From positions 1 through 42,884 of the forward strand of contig JAKSLL010000026.1 in NCBI GenBank assembly GCA_024401215.1: 42,884 bases of DNA, given 5' to 3'. The notes below the pieces were generated by a model. That model did not search any database and was not told the DNA's origin. It worked only from the letters and a program-made list of their open reading frames with translations. Below are positions 6,715-34,547 of the stretch, piece after piece. Origin of the DNA: Bacteroidaceae bacterium. Its GTDB lineage: Bacteria; Bacteroidota; Bacteroidia; Bacteroidales; Bacteroidaceae. Position numbers and translations under genes: made by a program. Each line of letters begins with the position of its first letter. The first letter of the stretch is position 1.

Positions 6715-6812
6715 TTATTCAATATATAGTTATGTTCAATTTCACATACAAGACTCATACAATCATGCTGACTGCCAAGCCTCCTTTTCATTTTATCGTA
6801 AAAGACAACTAC

Positions 6813-6840: not shown

Positions 6841-6859
6841 ACACAAAATCCACAAATAA

Positions 6860-7564
6860 ATGATAAAGAACATAATTTTCGACCTTGGAGGCGTACTTCT
6901 CGACCTCGATATGCCATATTGCATCACTCGTTTCAAATCTCTCGGATTGGACTTGAACAAGCTTACCGAGTCAAATAAAAATTCCACCTCTGGCTCCACG
7001 CAGAAGAACGCCGTACTATGCGAGGGCATGGTAGCAACAGGCGCCATGAATCTATACCAGACGGGGGATATCTCCACCGACGATTTCTTCCTCGGCATGC
7101 AGCGCTATGCCCTTCCTGGCACCACCATGAAGCAGCTCAAAGACGCATGGAACACCTGCTGCCTCACAATACCGCAATACCGCCTCGACAAGGTTTACGA
7201 ACTTCGTCAGAAAGGCTATAACATCTATATGCTGTCCAACACCAACGATGAACATTGGCAGGACATCGTAGCTCGCTGTTTCGGCTCATACGAAGATGTC
7301 ACACGCTATTTCCACCGCACTTTCCTTTCACAGGAGATGCACCTCGCAAAACCCAATGATGTCATCTACACCACCCTATTGAGCGAAATTAATGCAGAAG
7401 CATCCGAATGTCTGTTCATCGATGATTCTCAGCCCAATATCGACGCTGCATCAGCACTCGGATTTCACACCATCAAAGCACAAGTCACAAAGACAAAAGA
7501 CGGCAAGGTCATCGAAAGACCTTCCATCGACTGGGTGAATCTGGTTGATCAAAAACTCTCTTAA
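6860..7564 (+). CDS. HAD-superfamily hydrolase, YihX-like phosphatase
   Basis: This is a probable cytoplasmic phosphatase acting on a small sugar phosphate or nucleotide. The 234 residues carry all four HAD motifs: I is FDLGGVLLDLD (nucleophile D8), II is MLSNTND, III is the lysine in LAKPNDVIY, and IV is CLFIDDSQPNIDAA. The DLGG form of motif I, with Gly where DxD enzymes have the second Asp, is typical of the glucose-1-phosphatase-like YihX group, but the substrate cannot be read from sequence. It has its own promoter (6833-6840) 20 bases before the ATG. Confidence 0.88.
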   Translation: MIKNIIFDLGGVLLDLDMPYCITRFKSLGLDLNKLTESNKNSTSGSTQKNAVLCEGMVATGAMNLYQTGDISTDDFFLGMQRYALPGTTMKQLKDAWNTCCLTIPQYRLDKVYELRQKGYNIYMLSNTNDEHWQDIVARCFGSYEDVTRYFHRTFLSQEMHLAKPNDVIYTTLLSEINAEASECLFIDDSQPNIDAASALGFHTIKAQVTKTKDGKVIERPSIDWVNLVDQKLS

Positions 7565-7617
7565 TTGCCGCTGGCAACCTATAAGGCAGAAGGAAGCTAA
7601 GACAACAAATGACAATA

Positions 7618-7779
7618 GTAACTACTTTGCGATTTGATTTATAAACAACGATTCAACCAAATTCATCCAAATTAGAGCCTTGGCTCTTTGAATTTTCATC
7701 ACAAGGTTGTCTGATTGCAAGAATTTGGTTGAACCGAAGCTCGGCGTAAGCCAATCCTTGTTTAAAGCTGAATAGTAAT
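7618..7779 (-). mobile_element. MITE-like non-coding element, copy 1 (162 bp, diverged)
   Basis: This stretch matches the reverse complement of the element at 28215-28375 in length (162 against 161 bp) and sequence: GTAACTACT at one end, then GATTCAACCAAATTC, CCAAATTAGAGCC and GGCTCTT. The flanks TGACAATA (7610-7617) and TAACAATA (7780-7787) agree at 7 of 8 positions, consistent with an old 8-bp target duplication. The right terminal repeat is degraded (AATAGTAAT), and part of the right half differs from the other copy. There is no coding capacity. It separates the HAD and nitroreductase genes. Confidence 0.7.
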
Positions 7780-7803
7780 TAACAATAACAAACTAAATAA
7801 ATA

Positions 7804-8490
7804 ATGTTAATAGACGAAGCAATAAAGGCAAGACACAGCGTAAGAAACTACAAACATCTGCCGCTAACGGAGGAGATGATAGAAGTACTCCAGCAGAACA
7901 TTGACGAATGCAACAAGCAAGGCAACCTGCACATACAGCTGGTACTGAACGAGCGCAAGGCATTCACAGGAATTATGTCGTACGGCGTATTCTCTGGCGT
8001 AGAGAATTATTTCGTCATGGCAGGAAAAAAAAGCGCTGATTTGGATGAGCGGATTGGCTACTATGGAGAGAGACTCGTACTCTTAGCACAGACTCTTGGG
8101 CTCAACACATGCTGGGTGGGGCTATCATATCGTAAGGTCAGCAATGCTTTCAAGATCGAGAAGGACGAAAAGCTGGCATGCGTCATTGCACTCGGCTATG
8201 GCGAAGACAAATACAGGAAGCACAAGATAAAGAGTCGAGAGGAAGTGAGCAACGCCAGTGAACTCACACCCGAATGGTTCAACAAGGGTATTGAAGCAGC
8301 GCTCCTCGCACCAACAGCCGTCAACCAGCAGAAGTTCTTTTTTGAGCTGCTAAACGAGAAGAAAGAGGGAAAAGCCGTTGTGAAGGCATCGACAACATTC
8401 TCCATGATAGGCTACACAAAGATGGATTTGGGCATTGCTAAGTATCACTTTGAGGCGGCTGCAGGAAAAGACAATTTCGTGTGGGCATAG
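7804..8490 (+). CDS. Nitroreductase-family protein (TM-nitroreductase type)
   Basis: This is a predicted FMN-dependent oxidoreductase of the nitroreductase fold. The N-terminus (IKARHSVRNYKHLPL) is the classic FMN-phosphate-binding start. GYYGERLVLLAQTLGLNTCWVGLS is the dimer helix and flavin segment. The second half (PEWFNKGIEAALLAPTAVNQQ) repeats a nitroreductase-like helix, as in the single-chain putative TM nitroreductase family. Length is 228 residues. The substrate is unknown. The start lies 24 bases after the MITE-like element, so the element may affect its 5' leader. Confidence 0.85.
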   Translation: MLIDEAIKARHSVRNYKHLPLTEEMIEVLQQNIDECNKQGNLHIQLVLNERKAFTGIMSYGVFSGVENYFVMAGKKSADLDERIGYYGERLVLLAQTLGLNTCWVGLSYRKVSNAFKIEKDEKLACVIALGYGEDKYRKHKIKSREEVSNASELTPEWFNKGIEAALLAPTAVNQQKFFFELLNEKKEGKAVVKASTTFSMIGYTKMDLGIAKYHFEAAAGKDNFVWA

Positions 8491-8523
8491 AGACATACAT
8501 AAGAATAAAGACAAACATACAGC

Positions 8524-9039
8524 ATGCATAACAAGAGAGAGGATTTATCACTATTGCACGGAGAGGAAGACGCCATGGCCATATACAACGACGTAAAGGC
8601 ATCAGACAGCTTCGTTGAATTTGCATTGACATATATGCACGATGACGACAAAGTGGCTCGCAATGCGCTATGGGTGTTGACAAAAGCAACAGACAAGGAA
8701 TTATCACAGTTCCAGTCCATCATCGACAAGTTTATTGACCTGGCAATGAGTACAGAAAATTCATCTGTAAGGCGACTGAGCATGAATATTATCGACAGGC
8801 TCAAGATAAACAAAGATGACATCCGCACAGACTTCCTCGACTTCTGCCTTGAACATGCTGTGGATTTAGCAGAATACCCTGGCATTCAATCCTTGGCAAT
8901 AAAGCTCGCCTACAAAATGTGCTCTTTCTACCCCGAACTGAAGAAGGAACTCATCAGCACACTCGAAGCAATGGAGATAGAACACTATAAGCCAGCCGTA
9001 AAGAGCATCAGAAGCCGGATACTGAAATTCAGCAAATAA
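8524..9039 (+). CDS. HEAT/ARM-like helical repeat protein of unknown function
   Basis: A 171-residue acidic, all-helical protein with repeating pairs of helices such as FVEFALTYMHDDDKVARNAL and VRRLSMNIIDRLKI, which look like degenerate HEAT or ARM repeats. No catalytic motif, signal peptide or membrane segment is visible. Such proteins usually scaffold other proteins or nucleic acid. It lies 33 bases after the nitroreductase and 13 bases before the YqiA-like gene, so the three probably form one transcript. I cannot assign a function. Confidence 0.75.
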   Translation: MHNKREDLSLLHGEEDAMAIYNDVKASDSFVEFALTYMHDDDKVARNALWVLTKATDKELSQFQSIIDKFIDLAMSTENSSVRRLSMNIIDRLKINKDDIRTDFLDFCLEHAVDLAEYPGIQSLAIKLAYKMCSFYPELKKELISTLEAMEIEHYKPAVKSIRSRILKFSK

Positions 9040-14868: not shown

Positions 14869-15600
14869 ATGAAAAAAATTTTGTCTTTTCTTTTATTTTT
14901 CTTTGTTGCTATAATCGGTTTTTCACAATCGCCTATAAAGGTGGCTGACTACCGAAAATCCACCCTTCCTAACAATGGCGTATATACTGTAACTGGACGA
15001 ACAAATGGCCGTATATGGGGTGACGGTGTCTATACCGATGACTCAGACTTAGCTACCGTTTGTGTACATGCTGGCATTCTTCGAGCTGGCGAGACTGGTA
15101 TCATACAGGTCACAAAGAAGCCGGGGCGCAGCAGCTATCCAAGCGTGTCTCGCAATGGAGTGAAATCCATCTCCTATGGTGCATGGGACGGATCTTATTC
15201 TGTAGCACTTTACAATTCTAACACTTCGACATCCAACACCACTACAAACAAGCAAAGTCAAAGCACGACTTCGCAGCGCAATGCTAGTGTCAATGCACCT
15301 CAGGGGCCTACCAACTTGAAGGAATACCGAAAATCCACCCTTCCTAACAATGGCGTATATACTGTAACTGGACGAACAAATGGCCGTATATGGGGTGACG
15401 GTGTCTATACCGATGACTCAGACTTAGCTACCGTTTGTGTACATGCTGGCATTCTTCGAGCTGGCGAGACAGGTGTCATACAGGTAACAAAGAAGCCGGG
15501 GCGCAGCAGCTACCCAAGTGTGACTCGCAATGGAGTGAAATCCATTTCCTATGGTGCTTGGGACGGATCTTATTCTGTAGCACTTTACAATTCTAAATAA
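14869..15600 (+). CDS. Secreted protein with two near-identical LCCL domains
   Basis: A lipid-free signal peptide (about residues 1-19, ending FFFVAIIGFSQ) precedes two copies of an LCCL domain at about residues 28-118 and 153-243, joined by a Ser/Thr/Asn/Gln-rich linker. Each copy has the LCCL hallmarks RIWGDGVYTDDSDLATVCVH, then AG, PGRSSYPS, and NGVKSISYGAWDGSY. LCCL domains are extracellular and thought to bind lipids or polysaccharides; in bacteria their ligand is undefined. The copies differ at only 8 of 272 bases. The gene ends 63 bases before the large metallopeptidase-like gene, so co-transcription is possible. Confidence 0.88.
   Translation: MKKILSFLLFFFVAIIGFSQSPIKVADYRKSTLPNNGVYTVTGRTNGRIWGDGVYTDDSDLATVCVHAGILRAGETGIIQVTKKPGRSSYPSVSRNGVKSISYGAWDGSYSVALYNSNTSTSNTTTNKQSQSTTSQRNASVNAPQGPTNLKEYRKSTLPNNGVYTVTGRTNGRIWGDGVYTDDSDLATVCVHAGILRAGETGVIQVTKKPGRSSYPSVTRNGVKSISYGAWDGSYSVALYNSK
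14950..15221 (+). repeat. 272-bp direct repeat, copy 1 (LCCL-encoding)
   Basis: Identical to 15325-15596 except at 8 positions, all at or after base 15096. The first 146 bases are identical. The copies are 375 bases (125 codons) apart, so the reading frame is kept. Confidence 0.9.
15325..15596 (+). repeat. 272-bp direct repeat, copy 2 (LCCL-encoding)
   Basis: Second copy of the repeat at 14950-15221. Several of the eight differences are silent, and the changed residues are conservative (Ile to Val, Ser to Thr). Confidence 0.9.
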
Positions 15601-15663: not shown

Positions 15664-18519
15664 ATGAGAAAAATCAAGTCATTACTGCTATCAGGCTTTA
15701 TCATGATGGCAGGTGCAATTTCTGCACAAACAAATGTCACAAGCAAATACATCGAGAACCCCGACTTTGGAGCTCGATTTGCAGCATGGACAAATCCAGG
15801 AAAGTTCACATACAACATAGCCAGCAACTTCGACAGAAAGAACGGAGAAGTGTATATGGAGAAGTGGGTAGAAAAGAGCAAGACTCTTGGCAGCAACGCT
15901 GGTATGTCGCAGACACTTCGCGACCTACCTACTGGCACTTACACTCTTGTTGTTGCTGCCCAAAACATCTCTCAGGCAAACACAAGCAAGACTTGCACAG
16001 GTGCTTTCGTATATGCAGGAGCGGAGCAGGTGGAAATCAGCGAAAGCCGCGACTATTCGATTGTATTCACCGTGGTGAATGGCAAGGCAGACATCGGCGT
16101 AAAACTCAGCAGCTGTAACGGCAACTGGGTGTGCGTGGACAACTTCCGCCTTTTCTATAATGGCGAGAATGCCGACAGCATAGCTGCTGAACAGACTCGC
16201 ATTGACAAGGAGCTTGCTGAACTCAAGGAGCATCTTGCCAATCCTACAGGCGCTGCTCCAAAGGTGACAACAGGGGCTTTCGTGCCTACAGGCACCACTA
16301 TCGCACTCGGCAGAAGCACTATCAGCGGCACATGCAAGGAGAAGGGGTTCTGCTGGAGCACAGAACCAAACCCGACTATCTTCGACGAGAAAACAACAGA
16401 GACATTCGACAACAACGGCAGTATCTATGTGATGCGCGGATTGAAGCCTTCTACAATATATTATGTTCGCGCATACGCCATGACAAATGGCTATCAGGTT
16501 GCATACGGCGATGTGGTGAAGATTGCAACACTTCGCAAGGGCGTGATGAACTATGGCTATGACTTTGCTGGCGATGCCAACCAGAATGCTCGCATCAACA
16601 GCGCTTGCGCAGAATGTATATGGATGTACAACGCACTCAGCTATATCCCTGGTTTCTACCTCAATGTACATTATGTGTATGGAGCTGGCGCTGGCGACGG
16701 CACAGCCGACTGTTCGTATGGAGGATGGATGCGTGTGAGCCAGAAGGAGGCTTATCAGCAGACAGGCACGATTCTTCATGAAACAAATCACGGTGTGGGC
16801 GTTGGAACAACAAACGAATGGTATAACAACGCAAACCTCCGCGGCAGCGTGTCAAGAGGTCTTTGGCTTGGCCCTCGCGCCACTCAGATGGTTCGCTTCT
16901 TCGACAACAACACGACATCCACAATGACTGGCGATGGCACACACATGTGGCCTTACGGCATCAACGGAGCTCATGAAGACAGCTATCAGCCATCCAACCA
17001 TGCTCTATATTTTGCGAACATCTTAATCACTCACGCCATGCATCAGGATGGACTCATCTGCAGCAGCCAAGCAGGTTTTGCTATGCCAGCGTATGTATTC
17101 CAGCAAGATGACAATACCAAGTATTACATCAAAAGCGAATCTGCAGCCGGAGGTTCGCTCACAAGCTACCTCACACTTACCGCTACTGGCACTTTACGTA
17201 ATGTTGAAGCATCAGCAGAAGAGGCTTTGAAAGATGACAACTACGCATGGAACATCACTTACAACCCAGCAACAAGCAACTACATATTCCGCAATGTGGG
17301 CACAGGTAAATACATAACATATTCAAGCTCAAGCATCAAAGGCGCATCTGCCACAACTCCTGGCACAAACCAGAATTTCCACCTCATGCCATCACGCGAA
17401 GATGTAGCAATAGGCAAGTACAAGGGCACAAGCTACTGGCTCATCAAAGATAAGGCCAAGGTTCTTGCCACAGCTTCTTACAACAAGGCGGGCTATTATA
17501 GCACTTCCACAGCCAACTACGATGCTTCCAACAATGCAGAAACACAACGATGGATTTTCCTCACAGCAGACGAGATTTCGGAGTTTGAGACAGAAGCGAC
17601 AAAAGCTAAGACTGCTGAACTCGAAGAGCTCATTTCAAACGCCAAGTCTCTGCTTGCCACTCCTCATCACGCTTCATCAGAAATGACTGATCTCGCATCA
17701 ATAAAGACTGCTTTTGAGAATGCCATACAGTCTGCTGAAGCCAGCAAAGATTCATATCAGTCACCAGCAGAAGTAAGTGCAGCAATCTCTGACATAGAAA
17801 CTGCGCTTGTTGACTTCCTTGCAGCTGCAACACCTGATGACATTGCCAAACCATTCGACCTCACATTCATGCTTGTCAATCCAAACTTCAAGGACGGCAC
17901 AAATGGATGGAGCACTTCTGGCACAGTAAACTTCTCATGCGTTGAGTTCTTCCAGTCTAACTTTGACATGTCTCAGACAACAAAACTGAAACTGCCTATC
18001 GGCACATACGAAGTGCGCGTCAACGCCTTCCAGCGACCAGGCTCAAGGGAAGTTACTTACGGACAAAGCGGCATAGACAATGTCACAACCAACCTGTACA
18101 TCAAAGCTACTCTACAGAAAGTCAAAAATATATGGGCAGATGCACAGCCTAAGTCTCTTGGTGGAACGACCTACCATCAGAACAACCTGTATATTCCTGA
18201 CAATATGGAGGCAGCATCAAAATGGTTTGCAAACGGATGGTACGATAACAGCGTGATTGTCAATTCCGCTTCTTCGTCAGCAATCAAGGTGGGCATAAAG
18301 AGCACAAGCAACACAGCATCGGCATATTGGAGCATCTTCACCAACTTCCGACTCTATTACTACGGCTCATACACCAAGGAGGACATGACGAAAATAGACA
18401 ATGTCAACGACAACTCCGTCACCACATCAGGCACATACTACGACCTTTCTGGCCATGCTGTCAAAAACCCATCACGCGGCATTTACATTCGTGACGGAAA
18501 GAAGATTTTTGTGAAATAA
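15664..18519 (+). CDS. Secreted multidomain zinc metallopeptidase-like protein with a type IX-like tail
   Basis: A 951-residue exported protein. After a signal peptide (to about residue 21, GAISAQ) comes a jelly-roll-like module starting IENPDFGARFAAW, then a fibronectin-like segment ending LKPSTIYYVRAYAMTNG. The catalytic candidate is HETNH at residues 372-376, a HExxH zinc motif. A beta-trefoil-like region follows (about 480-640), then a helical FIVAR-like segment, then a second NPNFKDGTNGWS module. The end (YDLSGHAVKNPSRGIYIRDG, then KKIFVK) resembles a type IX sorting tail. Hydrolysis of host or plant glycoprotein is plausible but inferred. A strong terminator follows. Confidence 0.8.
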   Translation: MRKIKSLLLSGFIMMAGAISAQTNVTSKYIENPDFGARFAAWTNPGKFTYNIASNFDRKNGEVYMEKWVEKSKTLGSNAGMSQTLRDLPTGTYTLVVAAQNISQANTSKTCTGAFVYAGAEQVEISESRDYSIVFTVVNGKADIGVKLSSCNGNWVCVDNFRLFYNGENADSIAAEQTRIDKELAELKEHLANPTGAAPKVTTGAFVPTGTTIALGRSTISGTCKEKGFCWSTEPNPTIFDEKTTETFDNNGSIYVMRGLKPSTIYYVRAYAMTNGYQVAYGDVVKIATLRKGVMNYGYDFAGDANQNARINSACAECIWMYNALSYIPGFYLNVHYVYGAGAGDGTADCSYGGWMRVSQKEAYQQTGTILHETNHGVGVGTTNEWYNNANLRGSVSRGLWLGPRATQMVRFFDNNTTSTMTGDGTHMWPYGINGAHEDSYQPSNHALYFANILITHAMHQDGLICSSQAGFAMPAYVFQQDDNTKYYIKSESAAGGSLTSYLTLTATGTLRNVEASAEEALKDDNYAWNITYNPATSNYIFRNVGTGKYITYSSSSIKGASATTPGTNQNFHLMPSREDVAIGKYKGTSYWLIKDKAKVLATASYNKAGYYSTSTANYDASNNAETQRWIFLTADEISEFETEATKAKTAELEELISNAKSLLATPHHASSEMTDLASIKTAFENAIQSAEASKDSYQSPAEVSAAISDIETALVDFLAAATPDDIAKPFDLTFMLVNPNFKDGTNGWSTSGTVNFSCVEFFQSNFDMSQTTKLKLPIGTYEVRVNAFQRPGSREVTYGQSGIDNVTTNLYIKATLQKVKNIWADAQPKSLGGTTYHQNNLYIPDNMEAASKWFANGWYDNSVIVNSASSSAIKVGIKSTSNTASAYWSIFTNFRLYYYGSYTKEDMTKIDNVNDNSVTTSGTYYDLSGHAVKNPSRGIYIRDGKKIFVK

Positions 18520-20336: not shown

Positions 20337-23300
20337 ATGAAGAAATCTTTACTTCTTATTGCTGCCCTTGTGTCAAATGCTGCTGTGTTTGCACAATGGA
20401 CTGCTCCTGTGCCTTCAAAGGTTCAGGAAATGGCAACAGATGATGAAACTTCTCAGTATCTTTATAATAAAGAGGCTGGAGGATTTTTTGCCGGAGGAAA
20501 CGATTGGGGCACACGTGCTTCTGTTTCTACAACTGCTGATCCTATCAAGTTTGTTTCTTTGGATGGCGAGGCTTATAATTTCGCTTGCTATCCAGCAGCA
20601 AAGAATGCATGGCTCTACGTATCTTGCAACAACTTTGATGCTATGTGGGTTGATGCTGCAAATGCTGTAGCAAATAGTACTTACCCAGGTACAGACGCTT
20701 GGCAGATTCAGAAGCAGGCTAATGGCAGCTACAAGATCTCTAACTCAACAATTACTGGACCATACACTTTAGGTGTGGCTGAAATTTATAGAGGTCTCAA
20801 AGGCAATACTCGTTGTTACATCAATGACCAAGAAGATGTTTACGAAGTAGATGGCGAGACAACTCCAAGTATTTCTGGCAAGTTCTATGATGAATGGGTA
20901 TTCGTCGATGAAGAAGAGTATGAGGCTCTCAAGCCACAGGTAGAGGTGTATCTTGCATCAGTTAACCTTCTGGGAAAGATTGATGCTGTGAAGGCTGAGG
21001 ACGGAGCATTCGGCCTTGCTAACATCAATAAGGTATATCAGAATACATCTTCAACTGTTGAAGAACTTAATGCTGCTGGTGCAATTTGTGATGCTGCTAT
21101 AGCATTCCATAAGGCTTTGGAAGAAGCTAAGGCAACATATCCATATCTTGATTTTTCTGCTCCTATTGCAGTTTATAATAATGTGAATTCAACAGCAGAA
21201 GAATTGACAGCTGCATCTGGACAGATTAAGGAGATTGTTAATAATTATCTTGCTACTCAGGCAACATTTGAATCTCCAATCGATTACTCTTCTGTAATCG
21301 GTAATGGATCTGATGTCGCTCCTTGGACTCAGGAGTTTGCTGACGACAAGAAGGTTGGTACATGGCACACAAATACATGGTCAACAGAGGCTAACGGCGG
21401 TGCTGACGGTACAGACATGGTAACTCCATTCTGTGAGGACTGGGTGGCTAACGGCTCTATCCTTTCTGACCAGAAGATTTTCCAGGTTCTCAAGAATGCT
21501 GCTCCTGGTCTTTATAAGTTTGAGGCAAACGTACGTCTCTACAACGAGAAGGGCGATGTTGACGCTATTACAGGATGTAACATGTACTTCGGTGATAAGA
21601 GTGTAACTCTTGCTGAGCAGGTTGAAATGTACAAGTCAAGCGGCAAGTGTGTGCTTTGGAGCAAGAACAAGTTCCATATCATCGCTATCGTTGAAGAGTC
21701 TGGCGACATCGAATTCGGTTTCGACATCAAGGACGCTACATTCAACTGGATGGCATTCAAGGATACATCTCTCAAGTACTACGGCAATGAGAATTGCCAG
21801 GCTAACGCAGAAAAGCTCATCAAGGATTCTTATAATTTTAAAAAGGCAGAAGGCGTAGATGCTAACGCTGATGTTATCGCTGCTTATAATAACGCTGTTG
21901 ATGCATTCAACGCAGCTCAGTCTGCTGAAGACATCAAAGCAAAAGCGGCAGCCGCTGATGCAGCAAAGTCTGCTCTCGATGCAAATATTGCTGCTTACAA
22001 CAAATTGAAGGAAAGCATCAAGGCATGGGTGAAGGCTGTATCTGAAAAGCAGGATCTCGCAGGTGCTGAGTGGGATGACTTCTCTGACTTCATGCAGTCT
22101 GAGGACAAAATCGACAACTACCCAACTCCAAACCCAGTAGTAATCAACGACGGTGACCGCTCACTCACAACAGAGGAGATTGAAGAATATATCAAGAAGG
22201 TAGATGAGCTTTACGCTTCTGCTATCTCTCACTCAATCACTGATGGTGCTGACTGTACAGATATAATGCTCGTTAACCCTAAGTTCACTGATCCTAACGG
22301 TGCAGGTTGGACTGTAACAGACGGTAAGACTGGCAAGTGTGGCAACTACACAGCTCGTGGTGGTCTCCACAACTTCCCTGTAGCAGAGTCTTGGCATGCA
22401 ACATTTGATGTGTTCCAGGAAATTGACGGTGTGCCAGATGGTATCTACTCACTCAGCTTGAACGGTTTCTGCCGTCTCGATGATGGTGAGACAGAGGTTG
22501 CTGCTGAAATCTACATGAACGAGTTCGCAACAACTCTCCAGGATCTCTATTCACCAGAGCAGATGGTCAAGAATGATGACAACGCTATCGATGGATTCAA
22601 TTGCTACTTGGATGCTTCTGAAAACGGAGGATGGACTACTAACCCTGTATTCTTGGTAGAGCAGGCTGATGGTACTATGGTGCCTTGCGGTCATAACTCA
22701 CCAGCAAACAATACAGATAGCCAGGTTGATATTTCAGGAACAACTTATCTCGTTCCAAACGGTATGGAAGGTGCTTCTGTAGCATTCTCTGCAAACCGTT
22801 ATCAGGCTAAAGTTTACGGCTTGGTAGAAGGTGGCAAGATGCGTCTTGGTATCCGCAACACAACTTCAACTCACCAGTGGGCTCTCTGGAGCAACTTCAC
22901 TCTCACATACGAAGGAAAGCCTAAGGACGTTATCCTTGACCTCTTACGACAGTATATCGAAAGACTTGAGAATTACTCTGCTGACAATGTTGACAACATG
23001 ACAACACCAGCTAAGACTGTAGCTGTTGCTCCAATTGCAGATGCTAAGAATGCTGTTGCTGCTCAGGATGTTGATGCAATGTATCAGTCTCTCTCTGATG
23101 TAAATGCTGCTATGGTTGCTGCTAAGGAGAATGTAGCTGCTGTTAACGCATTCAAGGCTGTTGAGGAAGAAATCAATGCAGCTCTTGAGGGCAATCCTGG
23201 TGCAGAGGCTTTGGCTGCTTATGTTAAGATTTCTGACAAGATCTATGGTTACAAGGCACTTTCTACTGTCGAATTGAACGAACTCACAGAACATATGAAG

Positions 23301-24260
23301 GAAGTTGCTGAACTTCTCCGCATCCCTTCTACTGAAGGTGCTTCAGATGAAGAACCTGTTGACTTCACAGCAGTTATCATTAACCCAGACTTCTCTACAG
23401 GAAATGCTGATGGTTGGAAGTATCAATTTGCTGAGGTTTCAAACCTTGGTTTCCAGAATAATAATGTTTACAATGGCGAGGAAGTTTCTGTTGACCAGTT
23501 CATCGAAGGCTGGCGTTCAGGTAACGCTCCAATCGGCGACGGTTCAATTGAACAGACTATCTCTAAGCTTCCTGCAGGTGTTTACACTCTTACTGTAGAT
23601 GCTATCGCTAACCTCCAGAGCAGCCAGGCTGATGATCCAGAGGCAGATGATTACTGGGAGACAGCTTCAAACGGTATTTATCTCTTCGCTTCAGAGGCTG
23701 ATGGTAAGAAGAGCGCTATCGAGATAAAGTCTGCTAATGGCTCTCCAAAGCACTTCTCTCTCGTATTTGCTAAGGAAAATGCTGACAGCGATGTAACTAT
23801 CGGTATCCAGACTATCCAGTCAACTTGTAACTGGATAGCAGCCGACAATTGGGCACTTGCTTACAATGGCACTATTGGCGCAAGTTCATTGGAAATCAAT
23901 GGCGATGTAACTAACAAGACAGAATATCATGAAGTAGAAACACCTTCTATTAGTTATAGCAACAATAAAATCATATTTAGTTGTGGAACAGAAAATGTCG
24001 AATATCATTGTGACTATTCTATCACACAAAAAGAAGCAACAACAATAGATTCTAATGGTGTTTTTGACATACCAACTATCTCTTCTTGTGATCTAACGAT
24101 ATCAGTATATGCTACCGCCATGGGCTTAAATCGCAGCAAGACTGTAACAAAAACATTTAAGAACATCCCTCTCTTTAACAATGGAGATGTGAATAACGAC
24201 AAGCAAATAAACATTTCAGATGTGTCTGCTCTTATCAATAAGCTTTTAAATCAGAAATAG
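20337..24260 (+). CDS. Very large secreted FIVAR-like protein with a C-terminal dockerin-like motif
   Basis: A 1307-residue exported protein with a signal peptide ending VFAQ near residue 20. Three jelly-roll-like modules are visible: one after residue 310, one starting LVNPKFTDPNGAGW, and one starting INPDFSTGNADGWK. They alternate with Ala-rich helical FIVAR-like segments such as VIAAYNNAVDAFNAAQSAED. After a beta domain the protein ends in GDVNNDKQINISDVSALINK at about 1282, a single dockerin-type calcium loop. Codons are strongly biased to GCT, GTT and AAG, unlike most neighbours, suggesting high expression. It probably binds surface glycans or complexes; no catalytic motif is visible. 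Confidence 0.78.
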   Translation: MKKSLLLIAALVSNAAVFAQWTAPVPSKVQEMATDDETSQYLYNKEAGGFFAGGNDWGTRASVSTTADPIKFVSLDGEAYNFACYPAAKNAWLYVSCNNFDAMWVDAANAVANSTYPGTDAWQIQKQANGSYKISNSTITGPYTLGVAEIYRGLKGNTRCYINDQEDVYEVDGETTPSISGKFYDEWVFVDEEEYEALKPQVEVYLASVNLLGKIDAVKAEDGAFGLANINKVYQNTSSTVEELNAAGAICDAAIAFHKALEEAKATYPYLDFSAPIAVYNNVNSTAEELTAASGQIKEIVNNYLATQATFESPIDYSSVIGNGSDVAPWTQEFADDKKVGTWHTNTWSTEANGGADGTDMVTPFCEDWVANGSILSDQKIFQVLKNAAPGLYKFEANVRLYNEKGDVDAITGCNMYFGDKSVTLAEQVEMYKSSGKCVLWSKNKFHIIAIVEESGDIEFGFDIKDATFNWMAFKDTSLKYYGNENCQANAEKLIKDSYNFKKAEGVDANADVIAAYNNAVDAFNAAQSAEDIKAKAAAADAAKSALDANIAAYNKLKESIKAWVKAVSEKQDLAGAEWDDFSDFMQSEDKIDNYPTPNPVVINDGDRSLTTEEIEEYIKKVDELYASAISHSITDGADCTDIMLVNPKFTDPNGAGWTVTDGKTGKCGNYTARGGLHNFPVAESWHATFDVFQEIDGVPDGIYSLSLNGFCRLDDGETEVAAEIYMNEFATTLQDLYSPEQMVKNDDNAIDGFNCYLDASENGGWTTNPVFLVEQADGTMVPCGHNSPANNTDSQVDISGTTYLVPNGMEGASVAFSANRYQAKVYGLVEGGKMRLGIRNTTSTHQWALWSNFTLTYEGKPKDVILDLLRQYIERLENYSADNVDNMTTPAKTVAVAPIADAKNAVAAQDVDAMYQSLSDVNAAMVAAKENVAAVNAFKAVEEEINAALEGNPGAEALAAYVKISDKIYGYKALSTVELNELTEHMKEVAELLRIPSTEGASDEEPVDFTAVIINPDFSTGNADGWKYQFAEVSNLGFQNNNVYNGEEVSVDQFIEGWRSGNAPIGDGSIEQTISKLPAGVYTLTVDAIANLQSSQADDPEADDYWETASNGIYLFASEADGKKSAIEIKSANGSPKHFSLVFAKENADSDVTIGIQTIQSTCNWIAADNWALAYNGTIGASSLEINGDVTNKTEYHEVETPSISYSNNKIIFSCGTENVEYHCDYSITQKEATTIDSNGVFDIPTISSCDLTISVYATAMGLNRSKTVTKTFKNIPLFNNGDVNNDKQINISDVSALINKLLNQK

Positions 24261-24477: not shown

Positions 24478-24509
24478 TTTGTTCCTCTCACATTAAACAT
24501 TTATCTTTG
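24478..24509 (+). promoter_or_regulatory. Promoter of the radical SAM operon
   Basis: A -33 TTTG ends at 24481 and a -7 TATCTTTG lies at 24502-24509, with 20 bp between. The -7 box ends 32 bases before the ATG at 24542. The three genes that follow overlap, so this should drive all of them. Confidence 0.68.
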
Positions 24510-24541: not shown

Positions 24542-25429
24542 ATGAAGATAGATAAAGAATATCCTGCAACACACTCAATGTCAACAACATGGTACGCTGT
24601 TGATGCAGAAGGCAATGTTGCACTTATGGACTACAACGAAAATGGCCCTGTCCCTCACGGTTTGGAAGAAAACTATATTCCAGAACTTATACTTCAACTA
24701 CCTGCTAATGACACAGGAAACATACCAACAGCGTCATATACAGAAGAACAGGTTAACGAGCTATTAGGAAAACGTGTTGATTTAGACGATTTAGAGTATG
24801 GACCTATTGTGGTAGAACTCAAAAAATGTAGAGAAGAAGCTTTTATCAAGTGGGCGCACAAAATCAACACAGAAGCATTTGGACACAGAGCTATAATTCG
24901 TTTAAATCCGAAACTCGACTATTATGCTGTGAACGATCGTGGCAGAGGAAAGGAGTTTGAAAATATGCTGAACAACAAATGGTTCTACAACATTTATTCT
25001 TGCTTTTGGGAAATTGACGACATTTGGGACAAAGAAACGCAGAATGTTGTATGGGACAAAACATTCACATCAGTCCCATTTTATATATACGGTCAACCTT
25101 ATTCTAACAATCTTAGGATGAGTAAGATTCACACTCCTTGTCATCCTGTAAAGATAGAGCAGCTGCCACCTGATGTACAGAGGAAAGCCACTAAGTTGCC
25201 TTTGTCTTTTGCAGAAACAAGAAAACTGCAAATTGCAGAGTTTGCAGATTGTTCTATTATGGAAAATCCAAGATTTGAATATAAAGGACAATCCTATCAT
25301 TACCTACCTGACTCAAATGGAGAATTTATGTATATCGCCGTGGGAGAAAGGGTTGCTTCAACTCCGCAAAAACTGTCAAAAGAAGAGGTCAACAAACTAA
25401 GTAATGGTGAAAAAGAAAAAACGCTATGA
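24542..25429 (+). CDS. Unknown protein A of the radical SAM operon
   Basis: A 295-residue soluble protein of no family I recognise. It starts with DKEYPATHSMSTTWYAVDAE and then GNVALMDYNENGPVP; the W-x3-D-x2-G-N-V-x4-D pattern is shared with the next gene. Later shared blocks are FYIYGQPYSNN, HPVKIEQLP and YHYLPDSNGE. The ATG at 24542 is chosen over a TTG at 24530 because it aligns with the paralog's start. Its TGA overlaps the next ATG by four bases (ATGA). There is no signal peptide, so it is cytoplasmic. It could be a substrate or partner of the radical SAM enzyme. Confidence 0.8.
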   Translation: MKIDKEYPATHSMSTTWYAVDAEGNVALMDYNENGPVPHGLEENYIPELILQLPANDTGNIPTASYTEEQVNELLGKRVDLDDLEYGPIVVELKKCREEAFIKWAHKINTEAFGHRAIIRLNPKLDYYAVNDRGRGKEFENMLNNKWFYNIYSCFWEIDDIWDKETQNVVWDKTFTSVPFYIYGQPYSNNLRMSKIHTPCHPVKIEQLPPDVQRKATKLPLSFAETRKLQIAEFADCSIMENPRFEYKGQSYHYLPDSNGEFMYIAVGERVASTPQKLSKEEVNKLSNGEKEKTL

Positions 25430-26862
25430 GAACTGACAAAGAATATCCTGCAACACATTCTATGTCAACGGCATGGTATATAGTTGATGACGAAGGTAAT
25501 GTAGGAATCATGGATTATAACGAAAATGGTCCTGTCCCTTGGGGAGTTGAACAAACAAGTAGCGATGACTTGAAATTTGGGCATTGGGAGGATAGTTATT
25601 GCAAGATTATCAAATTCAATCTTACTAACGAACAAATACTGGATTTATTGAGTAACCCACATAAGCCATCAGAAGAAAAGATGTGGTATGAATGTGTCGT
25701 ACGAATTGCCAAAGAAAAGAAGGAACGTTTTATTGAATTATGCAAAAACGAAGATATTGATGCAGAAAGTATTTTCTGTTTGTCAGAAGGATTAGGATTA
25801 TATGAGTTTGATGCCTATGAATGTGCGCATGACATCAATTATCTTGAAAAGCCCGTCAGTGGCTCTCTGAAATTGATGCTTGACGAGAACATTATCATCG
25901 AAGTGTATAGTTTACAAGAACTTGACATGAATGACAAATTCAAAAACGACGAGGTCATTTTCGAAAAAGAATTCGAAAATTCACCATATTATATGTTTCA
26001 TCAGCCATATTGGACAGGCTGTTTGCCTAAGAAAATGCATCAACCAAAGCACCCAGTGAAAATGGATCAGATTCCAGAAAGATTCAGGCACAGACTACAT
26101 AAGATTCCTGGAAGTTTCAAGGATATGGATACCTTTCAAATAGCCCAATACTATCCTTGTGAAGAGTATTGCAATAATACATATATAGTAGATGGCTGCT
26201 CTTACCAACTATCACCACTTCCTGATGGGACAGAAGTCTATACCAAATCAGGAATGTGTCATTACCCTTTCTTTAATTATTGTTCCGAGAAGGAAAAATT
26301 TCATTGTACACAAAAATGTACAACCCAATGCTGTGATATATTCGACATGTACATCAATGATAAACCAACAGTTCTAATTATATTTGACCCAAGGGAAGAA
26401 GCTGATTATAATTGGAAAATTGAAACAAATATTGTCTTTCAAAATTCATACGCCACACCATATATATCAAAATTGCCTTATAGAATAGCTGACAAAGGTT
26501 TGCTCTTTCAAGATGATGTGATTAAGTACATCAATCAAGAATGCCTGTCAAAAATACTGAAAGAATCAAAGGGGTATATTGAAGCAATAATCAATGATAT
26601 CAGACCTCGTGTTATTCTCGTAACGGACATGGCTTTCGAAGTGATGAACGATGTTTTCAAACTTACAAATAAAAAAATAGAAATTAATAGTGAGGAATAC
26701 CCTTTCTACTCTTTGTCGGAGTTGTTCAAGCATTCTGCTATCATTGACGAATTGGCGCAAATGCCATTCAGAGGCAAGCATCACCCGCAGCTGATTTCAA
26801 CAGAAGAGATGGATTTTCTAATTAAGAATGGTATCGCAAAAGAATATAGCACTTTGATATGA
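25426..26862 (+). CDS. Unknown protein B, longer paralog of A with a Cys-rich insert
   Basis: A 478-residue cytoplasmic protein. Residues 1-290 are homologous to protein A: DKEYPATHSMSTAWY, GIMDYNENGPVP, YYMFHQPYW, HPVKMDQIP and YQLSPLPDG align in order, and the first codons are nearly identical at DNA level. It then adds about 190 residues starting with a cysteine cluster (HCTQKCTTQCC at about residue 295-305), followed by a mixed alpha/beta region (TVLIIFDPREEADYNW). The clustered cysteines could bind metal or be modified. It overlaps the upstream and downstream genes by ATGA on both sides. No family name can be given. Confidence 0.8.
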   Translation: MRTDKEYPATHSMSTAWYIVDDEGNVGIMDYNENGPVPWGVEQTSSDDLKFGHWEDSYCKIIKFNLTNEQILDLLSNPHKPSEEKMWYECVVRIAKEKKERFIELCKNEDIDAESIFCLSEGLGLYEFDAYECAHDINYLEKPVSGSLKLMLDENIIIEVYSLQELDMNDKFKNDEVIFEKEFENSPYYMFHQPYWTGCLPKKMHQPKHPVKMDQIPERFRHRLHKIPGSFKDMDTFQIAQYYPCEEYCNNTYIVDGCSYQLSPLPDGTEVYTKSGMCHYPFFNYCSEKEKFHCTQKCTTQCCDIFDMYINDKPTVLIIFDPREEADYNWKIETNIVFQNSYATPYISKLPYRIADKGLLFQDDVIKYINQECLSKILKESKGYIEAIINDIRPRVILVTDMAFEVMNDVFKLTNKKIEINSEEYPFYSLSELFKHSAIIDELAQMPFRGKHHPQLISTEEMDFLIKNGIAKEYSTLI

Positions 26863-27599
26863 TAGATCTGTTATCCATTGATTTAAGTAACTATTGCTCA
26901 AAAGAATGCTCCTTTTGTTATAATCACAGCAGGAAGGATGGTAATACTATGTGGAAAACAGAAGAAGTTATTCTGTTTGTTTCTGACTGTATTGCTCATG
27001 GCATAAAGGCTGTGTCACTTGGCGGTGGAGAGCCATTTGAGTATCCAGGCATATTCGATATTATAGATGCGCTCTATCCACAATGCTATCTTTCAGTAAC
27101 AACCAATGGCTTGCCGTTGGAACATATAAAGACGTGGAATAATCTTATGCTGCATAAGCCCGACAAAATCCACGTCACTATTCATCAACCTCAAGATGAG
27201 GAGGAAGTGTTGAGAGTTGAAAGACTTGTTCAGAAATTAGCAGAAACAGACATCAAGCCAGGCATTAACCTTTTGGTTGGTGCAGACAAGATAGAAGTTG
27301 CACAATTTGTTTATGCCAGAATGCTTCAGAGTATTAATGCTGACCAGATAATAGTCATACCTCAAAGATATGGCAACACCCCGTCTCCTAAGGATTTGGC
27401 AAAAGTTTCTTCTGGCAAACCTTTTCAAAGTCCATCATGTCTATTGGGATGTAAAAGGCCTCAAACTTTCGCATCCGTTTCGTGGGACAAGAAAGTCAAT
27501 TCATGCAGCTATGCAAGAGGCAAGGTGTCTCTTGAAAATTTGGACTATCAAGGACTAACTACTGCACTTAAAGCAGTCAAGTGGGGTACATGTTCATAA
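26859..27599 (+). CDS. Small radical SAM enzyme with extra C-terminal cysteines
   Basis: A 246-residue radical SAM protein. The cluster motif C13-x3-C17-x2-C20 (YCSKECSFCY) binds the 4Fe-4S that cleaves S-adenosylmethionine, and GGGEP (residues 55-59) is the SAM-binding motif. Four further cysteines (C194, C198, C216, C245) lie in a short C-terminal region and could hold an auxiliary Fe-S cluster, as in SPASM-type peptide-modifying enzymes, though the spacing is not a standard SPASM. Its ATG overlaps the TGA of protein B. The tight coupling suggests it modifies protein A or B, or a shared substrate; this is inference. Confidence 0.9.
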   Translation: MIDLLSIDLSNYCSKECSFCYNHSRKDGNTMWKTEEVILFVSDCIAHGIKAVSLGGGEPFEYPGIFDIIDALYPQCYLSVTTNGLPLEHIKTWNNLMLHKPDKIHVTIHQPQDEEEVLRVERLVQKLAETDIKPGINLLVGADKIEVAQFVYARMLQSINADQIIVIPQRYGNTPSPKDLAKVSSGKPFQSPSCLLGCKRPQTFASVSWDKKVNSCSYARGKVSLENLDYQGLTTALKAVKWGTCS

Positions 27600-30487: not shown

Positions 30488-30596
30488 TTGTTAAAAAACA
30501 ATACTCTTCAGACTTACTTATGAGCGGAAAAAGTTCAAATACGCCAAGAAAACAAAGAAGCATCCCCAAATGCTTGATGCCTTGAATATTTGTTAT

Positions 30597-30604
30597 TACC
30601 TTTG
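30597..30604 (+). promoter_or_regulatory. -7 box for the DUF2207 pair
   Basis: TACCTTTG at 30597-30604, 48 bases before the ATG at 30653. It lies inside the longest possible frame from 30590, showing that the upstream start is not used. Confidence 0.6.
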
Positions 30605-30652
30605 TGGTCTAAAAACATAGAAGTAAAAGCCCAAATAAATCAGCAAAACAAA

Positions 30653-32587
30653 ATGAACGCATTAAAAACGTATAAATCGGCAATACTATTCTTCCTTGCA
30701 TTTGTAATAAATATCGGTATAGCAAATGCATACGATCCTGGATATTATTTTGAAAAATACCACTTCGACATGACTGTACATGAAAATGGCAGCTACGACG
30801 TGGTGGAAAATATCGACGCCGTATTCACAGAAGAGAGCCGAGGCATTTTCCGTGAGATACCAGTATGGGTATGGGTGAAGCGTGATGTATCAGAGAAACA
30901 AGACGGCAGCGAGACAAAGATGCTTCAATACTATGTGGATGTGGACAATGTGGATGTGTCGGAGGAGACTTCGGAAGAGGAGATTGACGAATTGTACTCC
31001 ATCCGTATTGGTTCGGCTGACAAGTATATAAAAGGTCCTCATCCATACACTATCAAATACACTCTCACACCATACGGCGACCGTGTCGAGCAGAGCGACT
31101 TGTTCTTCTACTCCTTGCTTGGTGTGGGATGGGACTGCAAAACAAACCAATTCACTTTCAGCATACATTTCGACAAACCTCTCACGGACGAGGAGTTGAA
31201 ACAGCTTGAAGTATTTACAGGTGAACTTGGCGACAACACAAACTATGCAAATGCTATAATAACAAAAGCAACAAACACAGAGATTCAAGGAATAAGAAAA
31301 AACATCGAGCCACATGAGGCGATAACTGTAAGAATACCATTAAGAGAAGGTTATTTTGCAGAAAATACGCATCCTAAGTTAAACATCCAAACTTCTTGGA
31401 TACTGATTATCATCTCTGCAGTACTCATTGCCATAATTCTTTTCCTCGAACTTATTCCAAGCTACAGACCGACAAAAGTTATCTCCTTCCGTCCTCCAAA
31501 GGGAATGACAAGTGCTGATGTCGGCGCTATAGCCTCAGCAGAGATAAATGATAAATGTGTGCTATCACTCATACCATGGCTAGCCAGCAAAGGAAGTCTG
31601 ATTATTGACAATTCACAAGCGAAACCTATACTACGAATCAGCAACGGACTTCCTTGCGATGCACCACCATATGTAAAATCTCTCTTCGACGGTATGTTCT
31701 TTAATGGCAGCAAGGAGATGGACACCAACAAGCCATCAAACAATTTCGGCAAAGGGTGGTATAATTGCATGTCCTCGCTTACAAAAACTTTTCAAGACAA
31801 GTTGAACAAGACCAGAGACAAACAATTCAGGATTCTCTATGCTGCAATTCTAACGGTGTCGTTCGCCAATTGCTTTGCATCAATAAGAGACGGATGGCTT
31901 GTAGGAGGATTAACAACCGTCTTTTTCGCTGTAATCTCCGCTATTCAGAAGCTACAGTTAAACAGCGATCTACAAAAATCCACACCTACGGGAATGGCAT
32001 TCATCATCGGCTTATGCACATCTTTCTTTATACTATTAATGCATTGGGGCTGTTTCGGTGGCGAAGACCCAAGTTACATTCCTATGAAATTTATCTATAT
32101 GATAAATGGTGCATTATTCGTAGCATGCTACCTCTCAATCAAACTCGAGGAGCCAACAGAATACCGCAAGACACATCTTGGCGAAATCATGGGATTCAAA
32201 GAGTTCATAGAAACAGCAGAAAAGCCACAGCTCCAGAAACTTCAAGCAGAGGATGAGATGTACTTCTACGACATCCTCCCTTATGCCGTAGCGTTAGGAT
32301 TGGCTGACAAATGGGCAAAGAAATTTGAGAATATCATTGTGAAACAGCCTTCATGGTATAAGGGCAAGCAAGGCGAGATTGTCACAAGCTCTTTGGCTCG
32401 TCTTGTTACACATTCGATGATGACAAAAGGAATGAAGAATTCTATAGCAAGTGGAGCACCGCGTTCAACGTCATCACGCTCATCATCATCTTCTGGTAGC
32501 AGTTACAGTTCAAGCCACAGCTACAGTTCACGAGGTGGCGGTTATTCCGGTGGCGGTTTCGGAGGCGGCGGCGGACGACGCTGGTAA
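30653..32587 (+). CDS. DUF2207-family membrane protein, first of a tandem pair
   Basis: A 644-residue membrane protein. A signal peptide (about 1-26, ending IANA) leads into the extracytoplasmic DUF2207 beta domain (MTVHENGSYDVVENIDAVFT, then ESRGIFREIP). A transmembrane helix follows at about 252-275, then a cytoplasmic domain starting ISFRPPKGMTSADVG, then about four more hydrophobic segments. The tail is Ser-rich and ends in a Gly-rich run, GGGFGGGGGRRW. DUF2207 proteins are widespread and lack a known function. It is co-transcribed with its paralog 40 bases downstream. Confidence 0.88.
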   Translation: MNALKTYKSAILFFLAFVINIGIANAYDPGYYFEKYHFDMTVHENGSYDVVENIDAVFTEESRGIFREIPVWVWVKRDVSEKQDGSETKMLQYYVDVDNVDVSEETSEEEIDELYSIRIGSADKYIKGPHPYTIKYTLTPYGDRVEQSDLFFYSLLGVGWDCKTNQFTFSIHFDKPLTDEELKQLEVFTGELGDNTNYANAIITKATNTEIQGIRKNIEPHEAITVRIPLREGYFAENTHPKLNIQTSWILIIISAVLIAIILFLELIPSYRPTKVISFRPPKGMTSADVGAIASAEINDKCVLSLIPWLASKGSLIIDNSQAKPILRISNGLPCDAPPYVKSLFDGMFFNGSKEMDTNKPSNNFGKGWYNCMSSLTKTFQDKLNKTRDKQFRILYAAILTVSFANCFASIRDGWLVGGLTTVFFAVISAIQKLQLNSDLQKSTPTGMAFIIGLCTSFFILLMHWGCFGGEDPSYIPMKFIYMINGALFVACYLSIKLEEPTEYRKTHLGEIMGFKEFIETAEKPQLQKLQAEDEMYFYDILPYAVALGLADKWAKKFENIIVKQPSWYKGKQGEIVTSSLARLVTHSMMTKGMKNSIASGAPRSTSSRSSSSSGSSYSSSHSYSSRGGGYSGGGFGGGGGRRW

Positions 32588-32627
32588 AAAACCTCAAGTA
32601 ATGACAAAGCACCAACTTTAGAACAAT

Positions 32628-34547
32628 ATGAACACATACAAAAGATACAAATCACGCATATTGTTTATTCTCACATTATTTATGTGCATGGCCTCCGTCA
32701 AGGCTTACGGAGACTCAAGCTTCTACTTTGACAATTATAATGTTGAGATGACAGTACACGAGAATGGAAGCTACGACGTGAAAGAGAGCATCAACGCAAT
32801 ATTCACATCTGAAAGCCGAGGCATTCTCCGCGATATACCATTATGGGTGTGGGTGAAACGCGATGTGTCGGAGAATCAAGACGGAAGCCAAACCAAAATG
32901 TTTCAATACAAAGTAGATGTGGACAATGTGACTGTTTCTGAACAGCACGAATGCTTTGATGACGAAGAGCTATACACCATCCAAATCGGCTCTGCCGACA
33001 AGACTATTAATGGTCCACATTCCTACTCCATAAGCTACACACTCACTCCATACGGAGACCGTGTAGAACAAAGTGATTTGTTCTTCTACTCTCTGCTCGG
33101 CACAGGATGGGAATGCGATATAAAACAGTTCACTTTCAGCATACATTTTGACAAGCCCTTAAAAGACGACGAACTGAATAAACTGGAAGTGTTTGCCGGC
33201 AGCCTTGGCAGCAATAGCAATGTGGCAAGTTCCGTTGTCACTAAAGCGACAGCTACAGACATCGAGGGAGTGAGGAAGAACAATAAGCCACAGGAGGCTG
33301 TAACAGTACGCATTCCCCTGCGCGAAGGATATTTTGCAGAAGGGACGCATCCTAAACAGGACATCCAATTAGCGTGGCTTTTCACAGGCATATCAGCCTT
33401 ACTCATTATTATCATGTTATGCGTAGAGTTTTGGCCGAAACCTACGCCAACAAAAATCATCTCTTTCCGTCCTCCGAAAGGCATGACAAGTGCAGAAGTT
33501 GGCACTATAGCCAATGGGTATGTAAACAATAACGCTATTCTCTCACTAATACCATGGCTCGCAGAAAAGGGCTATATCTCCATCAACAATACAGGAGAAC
33601 ACCCTATATTGAAATATGAGAAGGATGTTCCTGAAGACGCGCCAAACCATGTACTCCGTCTTTTCAACTACATGCTGGACAAGAAGCATAAGTTGCTCTA
33701 TACAGACCAGCCTGCTCCTGCTTTTGGCGCAGGATGGGAGGAATGCAGACGACTGCTATCTTATCAATTCCACAAAAAACTCAATATAGGCAACTTAAAG
33801 CCTTTATGGATATACAATACAGCGTTAGTGACTGTTGCATGCGCAAACTTCTTTGCAACAATAAAAGAAGGAGTGCTGGCGGCAATAATCTCTGTCATAA
33901 TGTTAGGTCTGCTTGAAATAATCCCAACTGTTGTGCTGAATGAATGCAAGCAAAAGCCTGCTCCAATAGCCCATATCGTAGGATGGAGCATCTTTGCGAT
34001 GATATACATACTATCATTCTGTATCGGATGTTTCGGTGGAGAAGACTCAACCTACATCCCTTTAGCATGCGTTTACGGCATCAACATAGGAATGTTAACC
34101 GCATGTTTCTTCATACTAAGGCTTGACAAACCAACTAAGGAGAGGATGGAGCACTTAGGAGAAATCTTAGGCTTCAAAGAGTTTATCGAGACAGCTGAAA
34201 AACAGCAACTTGAAAAACTGCAAGCTGAGGATGAGAAATATTACTACAGCATCCTCCCGTATGCCGTGGCATTAGGACTTGCAGACAAATGGGCAGAGAG
34301 GTTCAAGGGTATAGCTGTGAAGACACCAGAGTGGTATCAAGGACATAAAGGCGAGATTGCTACAGCGGCTATCGCCACAACCATAACAAAGACTCTCATG
34401 CAATCGAAAGCAGCAGAATCAATCGCCCAAAAGAAGAAAGCCTATGCTTCGTCAGGAAGCAGTTACTCTTCAAGCAGCAAATACAGTTCGGGTGGCGGAG
34501 GATATGCCGGCGGAGGATTCGGAGGCGGTGGAGGACGACGCTGGTAA
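32628..34547 (+). CDS. DUF2207-family membrane protein, second of the pair
   Basis: A 639-residue paralog of the preceding gene with the same layout: signal peptide, DUF2207 domain (VEMTVHENGSYDVKESINAI), central transmembrane helix, ISFRPPKGMTSAEVG, a four-helix hydrophobic block, and the same GGGFGGGGGRRW end. Aligned regions such as TLTPYGDRVEQSDLFFYSLL are almost unchanged, while the middle cytoplasmic part has diverged. The pair may form a hetero-oligomer. Tandem duplication is clear; function is unknown. Confidence 0.88.
   Translation: MNTYKRYKSRILFILTLFMCMASVKAYGDSSFYFDNYNVEMTVHENGSYDVKESINAIFTSESRGILRDIPLWVWVKRDVSENQDGSQTKMFQYKVDVDNVTVSEQHECFDDEELYTIQIGSADKTINGPHSYSISYTLTPYGDRVEQSDLFFYSLLGTGWECDIKQFTFSIHFDKPLKDDELNKLEVFAGSLGSNSNVASSVVTKATATDIEGVRKNNKPQEAVTVRIPLREGYFAEGTHPKQDIQLAWLFTGISALLIIIMLCVEFWPKPTPTKIISFRPPKGMTSAEVGTIANGYVNNNAILSLIPWLAEKGYISINNTGEHPILKYEKDVPEDAPNHVLRLFNYMLDKKHKLLYTDQPAPAFGAGWEECRRLLSYQFHKKLNIGNLKPLWIYNTALVTVACANFFATIKEGVLAAIISVIMLGLLEIIPTVVLNECKQKPAPIAHIVGWSIFAMIYILSFCIGCFGGEDSTYIPLACVYGINIGMLTACFFILRLDKPTKERMEHLGEILGFKEFIETAEKQQLEKLQAEDEKYYYSILPYAVALGLADKWAERFKGIAVKTPEWYQGHKGEIATAAIATTITKTLMQSKAAESIAQKKKAYASSGSSYSSSSKYSSGGGGYAGGGFGGGGGRRW

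Follow-up and report, generated by a model that had tools for sequence, protein, structure and literature searches.

A rare radical SAM unit whose partner proteins keep a conserved N-terminal tail and, in one group of loci, exchange a middle block

Why should a small radical SAM enzyme be encoded directly behind two larger proteins that are homologous to each other, and would such proteins be its substrates or the subunits that direct it? The question is raised by a contig of a Bacteroidaceae bacterium (GCA_024401215.1, JAKSLL010000026.1), which was analysed over 42,884 nucleotides (hereafter the window). Many radical SAM enzymes have a protein partner of their own, and the present locus has the following genes and promoter candidate.

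24478..24509, + strand: match to a Bacteroides-type promoter, TTTG-N20-TATCTTTG (pattern scan)
24542..25429, + strand: protein A, a short partner of 295 amino acids without a uracil-DNA-glycosylase-like (UDG-like) domain (ORF call, homology to B)
25426..26862, + strand: protein B, a long partner of 478 amino acids (ORF call, AlphaFold2 model)
26859..27599, + strand: radical SAM enzyme of 246 amino acids (ORF call, Pfam match, fold comparison)

The open reading frames agree with the initial annotation in that three consecutive genes overlap by ATGA at both the A/B and the B/enzyme junction. The homology that it claimed for A and B is equally evident, given that the DKEYPATHSMST and MDYNENGPVP blocks are identical in the two proteins, which share 34% identity over the whole alignment. 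The promoter that it placed upstream fits the Bacteroides consensus, and the window contains six matches to the pattern TTTG-N17..23-TAnnTTTG, whereas 100 shuffled sequences average 1.77 and two of them reach six. SOS control was considered and rejected. Sites of the SOS type (CTAA-N5-TTAG, at most one mismatch) numbered six where 16.7 were expected, and none lies in the promoter region. The single exact match to this pattern is found inside gene A, at 25104-25116.

The enzyme itself carries two sets of cysteines.

26895..26918, + strand: cluster motif C13-x3-C17-x2-C20 (61 of 61 aligned sequences)
27438..27593, + strand: second cysteine set C194, C198, C216 and C245 (alignment of 61)

Both the cluster motif and the GGGEP motif, which had been read from the sequence at the outset, are invariant in all 61 aligned enzymes, and a match to Pfam Radical_SAM (PF04055; 44.1 bits, cut-off 29.5) places the protein in the radical SAM superfamily. 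It also has cysteines after the core of the kind expected in RiPP maturases (SPASM/twitch), with C194, C198 and C216 present in 61/61 aligned enzymes and C245 in 60/61. To judge from this conservation, the second set probably binds an auxiliary Fe-S cluster. In other respects nothing sets it apart from radical SAM proteins in general. Among the NCBIfam matches listed it scores under every curated cut-off, the best being MoaA with 42 bits against 325. The case that the initial annotation had regarded as speaking against its reading, an enzyme inside a known subfamily with an unrelated substrate, is thus not seen among these matches. Fold comparison places the enzyme close to the peptide maturases SkfB and SuiB. 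The family TIGR03916 (cut-off 343.5 bits), which we take to be the same as COG4277, matches neither the enzyme locus (contig C154) nor contig C60, at one end of which the same genome has a further unit of B and enzyme. Its four matches in this genome down to an E value of 10 are on contigs C135, C209, C164 and C153, and the C135 locus scores 636 bits.

How constant is the company that this enzyme keeps? A scan of species genomes seeded by two enzyme peptide patterns yielded 70 loci, and a profile of eight partner sequences found matches in 67 of them. The partner end of one further locus (L019) is in another frame and is cut off by the contig start, and this locus was counted as linked. Another enzyme (L078) is intact, though outside the ORF filter. 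The contig of L028 begins 24 nt before the enzyme, which is too short to judge the partner, and L076 (42% identity), which has no partner, is the sole true miss among the 70 loci. A partner homolog is therefore found beside or near the enzyme in 68 of 70 loci, or 68 of the 69 that can be assessed. The initial annotation had proposed to check whether A and B stay linked to this radical SAM subtype, and the linkage is near-obligate. Three of the 70 loci (L014, L020 and L027) match contigs of relatives from earlier searches and so add nothing independent. Clustering of the 61 aligned enzymes, among them that of the window, gives 49 clusters at 90% identity, 40 at 80% and 25 at 70%. By their record titles, most hosts of the 70 loci are gut or rumen Bacteroidales, joined by Treponema and Spirochaetales, and L055 is labelled Erysipelothrix, from a metagenome bin.

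The unit is also rare and patchy. At an E value of 1e-30 the enzyme is detected in 6 of 393 genomes of the order, and the partner profile finds 9 of the same 393, namely the same six with strong matches (E <= 9e-32) and three with weak partial ones, such that homologs of A and B are not mostly unlinked to the enzyme. When 150 relatives were searched with A as the only query, no partner without an enzyme was found, and the matches, in four genomes, were all at units. With the divergent partner of L075 as query, five of 395 genomes of the phylum matched, comprising the window's own genome and four with partial matches in the UDG region. A partner search of Spirochaetes matched 4 of 247 genomes, including that of L067. 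In another of these (L149), a partner fragment shares its contig with the enzyme motif and a second fragment sits at another contig end, and the remaining two have weak partial matches.

Two broader settings were considered and set aside. A wide HSMDxxWFAVD family without radical SAM genes, which we had expected, was found by no search. Likewise, a phage or mobile-element home for the unit is not indicated by the viral, phage and plasmid searches. Specifically, viral contigs held no relatives of the unit (one of these searches was by pattern only), phages gave nothing for the first 55 residues of B and just distant Thermus phage genes for the enzyme, and plasmids gave one partial enzyme match and chance-level matches for the L075 N-terminus.

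Gene order was compared in the 66 loci for which both ORFs were picked up, with partners of at least 380 amino acids termed long (L) and the others short (S). The partner precedes the enzyme in 65 loci and follows it only in L075. Classed by ORF length, the arrangements are L in 33 loci, S in 21, SL in 4, LL in 3, SS in 2, and LSS, LS and enzyme-L in one each. Three of the apparently short cases are really long: the partners of L041 and L048, which are cut or mis-started, extend as far as the profile does, and that of L063 is split into two ORFs. After this correction short partners stand alone in 20 loci, and two or three tail-bearing partners occur in 10 of 66, among which L059/L061 and L046/L050 are near-copies. 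The gap between partner and enzyme is -8 to +8 nt in 46 of 65 loci. An exception is L048, where 1252 nt separate a partner fragment from the enzyme. Thus the constant unit is one of two genes, the enzyme plus one to three partners. Of the conserved three-gene unit proposed in the initial annotation, the conservation has stood (68 of 70 loci) and the number of genes has not.

A third constant gene was sought among ORFs of at least 70 amino acids clustered over 72 loci (the 70, the window and C60) and was rejected, because the enzyme cluster covers 71 loci and the partner cluster 69, while the next covers 16 and is mixed by eye, followed by WYL-like proteins in 13 and HIRAN-like proteins in 6. 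The constant neighbour of the enzyme among ORFs above 60-70 amino acids is the large partner. Same-strand neighbours were scanned for 101 upstream and 66 downstream genes (167 of 305 usable). No listed Pfam family occurs in more than 4 of the 101 or 3 of the 66, and no listed PADLOC family in more than 2 of the 101. On these raw counts we claim no association with defence islands.

Enzyme and partner appear to share part of their history. Enzyme identity and best-partner core identity show a moderate correlation (Spearman 0.46, over pairs that are not independent). On a quick tree of 60 enzymes, 58 of them labelled, partner type (long-bearing versus short-only) requires 10 changes, 5 of which are forced by starred branches. 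Shuffled labels require 14.2 changes on average, and only 1-4 of 500 shuffles are as low as 10. Partner type is thus partly inherited with the enzyme, though it changes often.

If the partner is dedicated to the enzyme, then the portions that all partners share are of particular interest.

24548..24592, + strand: invariant tail of A, residues 3-17 (partner alignment)
25432..25476, + strand: invariant tail of B, residues 3-17 (partner alignment, AlphaFold2 model)
25477..25539, + strand: beta-hairpin of B with DxxGNV and NGPVP, residues 18-38 (alignment, model)

Across 66 partners (of 82 ORFs found; 2145 pairs), mean pairwise identity is 81% in the tail (residues 3-17, KEYPATHSMSTxW), 62% in the hairpin (residues 18-38) and 22-31% beyond residue 38. 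Even in partner pairs whose cores are less than 20% identical the tail retains 73% identity, and residues P8, A9, H11, S12, W17 and D21 are invariant in 66/66 partners, including the outlier L075. For residues 1-38, dN/dS in 16 close pairs ranges from 0 to 0.38 (the highest being L026/L030; one value is undefined), and pN/pS is, for example, 0.022/0.458 in one pair and 0/0.265 in another (L066/L082). Given that synonymous changes pile up while few amino acids change, selection acts on the tail as protein. AlphaFold2 models B with high confidence (pLDDT 92.3, pTM 0.89), and only residues 5-11 fall below 50, such that this part of the tail is predicted to be disordered. A tail that is conserved, predicted to be disordered and accompanied by the enzyme as its only constant neighbour would be well explained if the enzyme binds it. 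No Pfam, NCBIfam or PADLOC family reaches its cut-off for A or B, and the PADLOC anti-phage families give no match to either protein up to an E value of 1.

Beyond the tail, one group of loci reveals a different mode of evolution.

25663..25959, + strand: position in B of the exchanged block, residues about 80-178 (mapped from homologs L036-L044)

In the model of B, residues 90-161 within this block form a b-a-b-b-a-b segment, and the pLDDT of the block is mostly 88-98. The exchange was observed among six related loci (L036, L038, L039, L040, L043 and L044), and the enzymes of the first five of these are 91-98% identical. The partners of L036 and L038 are 44-65% identical in residues 81-180 and 100% elsewhere save for one segment of 95%, and in DNA the edges of the block are sharp, near codons 80 and 177 (B residues 79-178). 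The block of L036 fits that of L043 (98-100%) and the block of L038 fits that of L039 (96-100%), against the relationships of the flanks. Discordant sites for L036 divide 1:89 in the block versus 120:11 outside (Fisher P 4e-48) and for L038 1:86 versus 211:10 (P 1e-63), with L040 less clean at 12:68 versus 105:51 (P 6e-15). L036 and L038 have a stretch of 7.8 kb in common that is 96.6% identical, whereas the sequence on either side is 74-75% identical, which suggests that the stretch moved between species recently. Within it only 6 of 129 comparison windows fall below 85%, five of them in the block; for L039 versus L043, 10 of 51 windows around the unit do so, some outside the block. The L036 partner had a single match in every one of the six genomes, such that a donor copy in the same genome was not found. 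In pairs of the group the block has a dN/dS of about 0.3, which speaks for replacement of the whole block rather than point-by-point positive selection. Thus, in this six-locus group, the middle block has been replaced by recombination while tail, C-terminus and enzyme remained nearly constant.

Broader mosaics, which do not show exchange of this same 80-178 block, have homogenised ends and differing middles. The partners of L058/L062 and L049/L078 are 95-98% identical at residues 361-478 and 41-70% over residues 39-360. Tandem copies in L014 share their last hundred codons at 95-98% DNA identity, and those in L059 agree over 20 initial codons and a single late segment, and in both loci the middles have diverged. 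Such an exchange is not seen in the genome of the window itself, where identity between the two copies of B is 67-78% in each segment beyond residue 38.

The C-terminal half of B adds a further, optional element.

26185..26769, + strand: UDG-like fold of B, residues 254-448, without GExPG (fold and motif comparison)
26281..26331, + strand: cysteine group C286, C294, C298 and C302 of B (long-partner alignment)

This half has a UDG-like fold, and the domain is absent from A and from many other partners. Its sequence carries little trace of the family, since Pfam gives no UDG match for the window's B up to an E value of 1 (PF03167) and hhalign probabilities are 2.9% and 5.4%. GExPG is found in 0/47 long partners versus 29/30 UDG controls picked without a motif filter (the other has GQxPG). 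HP[SNGA] is likewise found in 0/47, one partner having HYS, versus HPS, HPA or HPxP in 30/30 controls (HPxP was scored in the controls alone). The cysteines are frequent in long partners (C286 in 38/39, C294 in 28/37, C298 in 33/37, C302 in 29/41), and this group might be a metal site.

We tentatively favour, with somewhat less than even confidence, a two-component system in which the tail docks on or is modified by the enzyme and the exchangeable middle determines what is recognised. A single radical SAM enzyme, with its probable auxiliary cluster, would serve one to three dedicated partners. The invariant tail would enter or dock on the enzyme, the partner being either a substrate of protein size or a specificity subunit that has the tail as its handle, and the middle module would decide the target of the complex. 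This module may be under selection for novelty, as in conflict with a phage, a plasmid or a neighbour, and the UDG-like domain, where present, could help to hold nucleic acid. We give slightly more weight to modification of the tail than to docking alone. The initial annotation had proposed that the enzyme modifies A or B or acts with them on a shared target. The conserved unit agrees with that proposal in part, but because A lacks the UDG-like C-terminus and the middle recombines in one group of loci, a specificity subunit now competes with a substrate. Exchange of modules is typical of recognition domains in restriction and other conflict systems, and a more specific version would have the enzyme aimed by interchangeable specificity proteins that dock through one tail and whose recognition module is swapped in a system of conflict or self-recognition. 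This version we consider doubtful. If it is true, radical chemistry would act as an effector of conflict or self-recognition, for which we found no counterpart.

The same observations can be read in other ways. A pair for DNA or nucleotide repair or modification, with the enzyme altering a base that the UDG-like domain finds, holds or removes, seems unlikely to us. So, to a greater degree, does a viperin-like scheme, by which the enzyme would make a modified nucleotide and the partner, whose recognition domain varies, would act as its sensor or regulator. The enzyme reaches 27.7 bits in the viperin family (NF038283/pVip) against a cut-off of 180, SkfB ties with viperin as its fold neighbour, and its four extra near-invariant cysteines are, to our knowledge, lacking in viperins.

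Under the logic of peptide natural products, the product would be a piece of the partner, which would then be a very large precursor headed by a conserved leader. The conserved N-terminus and variable remainder, the several partners per enzyme in some loci and an enzyme fold near RiPP maturases would all suit this arrangement, but the variable part is a folded domain, as its pLDDT indicates, rather than a short core, and no neighbour family exceeds the 4 of 101 or 3 of 66 counted above. We therefore regard it as quite improbable. It might also be argued that the apparent exchange arose in assembly, from mixed strains in metagenome bins, given that all six loci come from metagenome-assembled genomes. 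That explanation is very improbable, because L038 and L039, which their record titles assign to different projects, carry the same alternative block at 96-100% DNA identity, the frames stay open, and a related pattern is seen in tandem copies on one contig.

The claim that the system is undescribed has survived our reading, since the literature searched gave no description of the unit, nor of a recombining partner middle beside a fixed tail and enzyme. The best-matching known pair is rSAM_link_UDG (TIGR03916 plus a UDG protein), likewise a two-gene unit with a UDG-fold protein in Bacteroidetes, where a paper on the SOS response reports a COG1573-COG4277 operon (PMC8565304). In contrast to that pair, whose TIGR03916 member matches another locus of the genome (C135), the present enzyme has 246 amino acids, the UDG-like domain is optional and lacks GExPG, and the partner bears a conserved tail. 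The unit thus gives this genome a second pairing of a radical SAM enzyme with a UDG-like fold besides its TIGR03916 locus, without belonging to that family. The peptide maturases SkfB, SuiB and EpeE, which have linked substrate genes, resemble the enzyme in core fold and in having a second cysteine set, but the present partner is usually a folded protein of 280-490 amino acids and no NCBIfam cut-off is reached among the matches listed. Viperins (pVip) differ in that the enzyme is below their family cut-off and has an extra cysteine set and a near-obligate partner. Given that radical SAM enzymes with partners are already known, module exchange is what could make this unit more than another example, and if the tail is the enzyme's handle, both chemistry and target become directly testable. 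The nearest analogy, for which we claim no sequence relation, is HsdS of type I restriction, in which a recognition module recombines between conserved flanks while the catalytic subunit remains constant.

When the homologous enzyme loci of two other genomes (L036 and L038) were compared, identity reached 96.6% across 7.8 kb (positions 961-8760), with flanks at 74-75%, and this high-identity stretch stops shortly beyond the enzyme gene. The stretch has apparently been transferred recently between species. At a further locus (L063, 1651-2896), two ORFs correspond to one long partner that has been split, and this partner appears to be broken. At L076, the enzyme homolog has no partner at the locus and therefore may represent an older, partner-free relative. 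The title of that contig reads Gracilibacteria, and by eye its neighbouring genes look cyanobacterial.

The surroundings of the unit were also inspected at two other homologous loci. In L054 (1-16732), WYL-like and DUF262-like genes surround the unit, accompanied by genes for an EVE-like protein and a TIR/SEFIR-like protein, and an activase-like gene constitutes a second radical SAM gene there (most of these labels were assigned by eye). In L009, an ORF (6808-7956) that contains a CFLAGTKI motif and looks Hint/intein-like by eye lies on the strand opposite the enzyme gene, with an overlap between its end and the 3' end of that gene.

Within the window, a 1307 aa ORF (20337-24260) is located immediately upstream of the radical SAM unit; neither this ORF nor one of 951 aa (15664-18519) has any Pfam match at 1e-5. 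A 243 aa ORF (14869-15600) matches the LCCL domain at 94.5 bits, a domain known mostly from eukaryotes, and two DUF2207 membrane proteins are encoded in tandem at 30590-34547.

Regarding known systems, the same genome carries a clear gene for TIGR03916 (rSAM_link_UDG), a radical SAM family linked to UDG, on another contig (G000:C135:4815-6056), separate from the window's unit.
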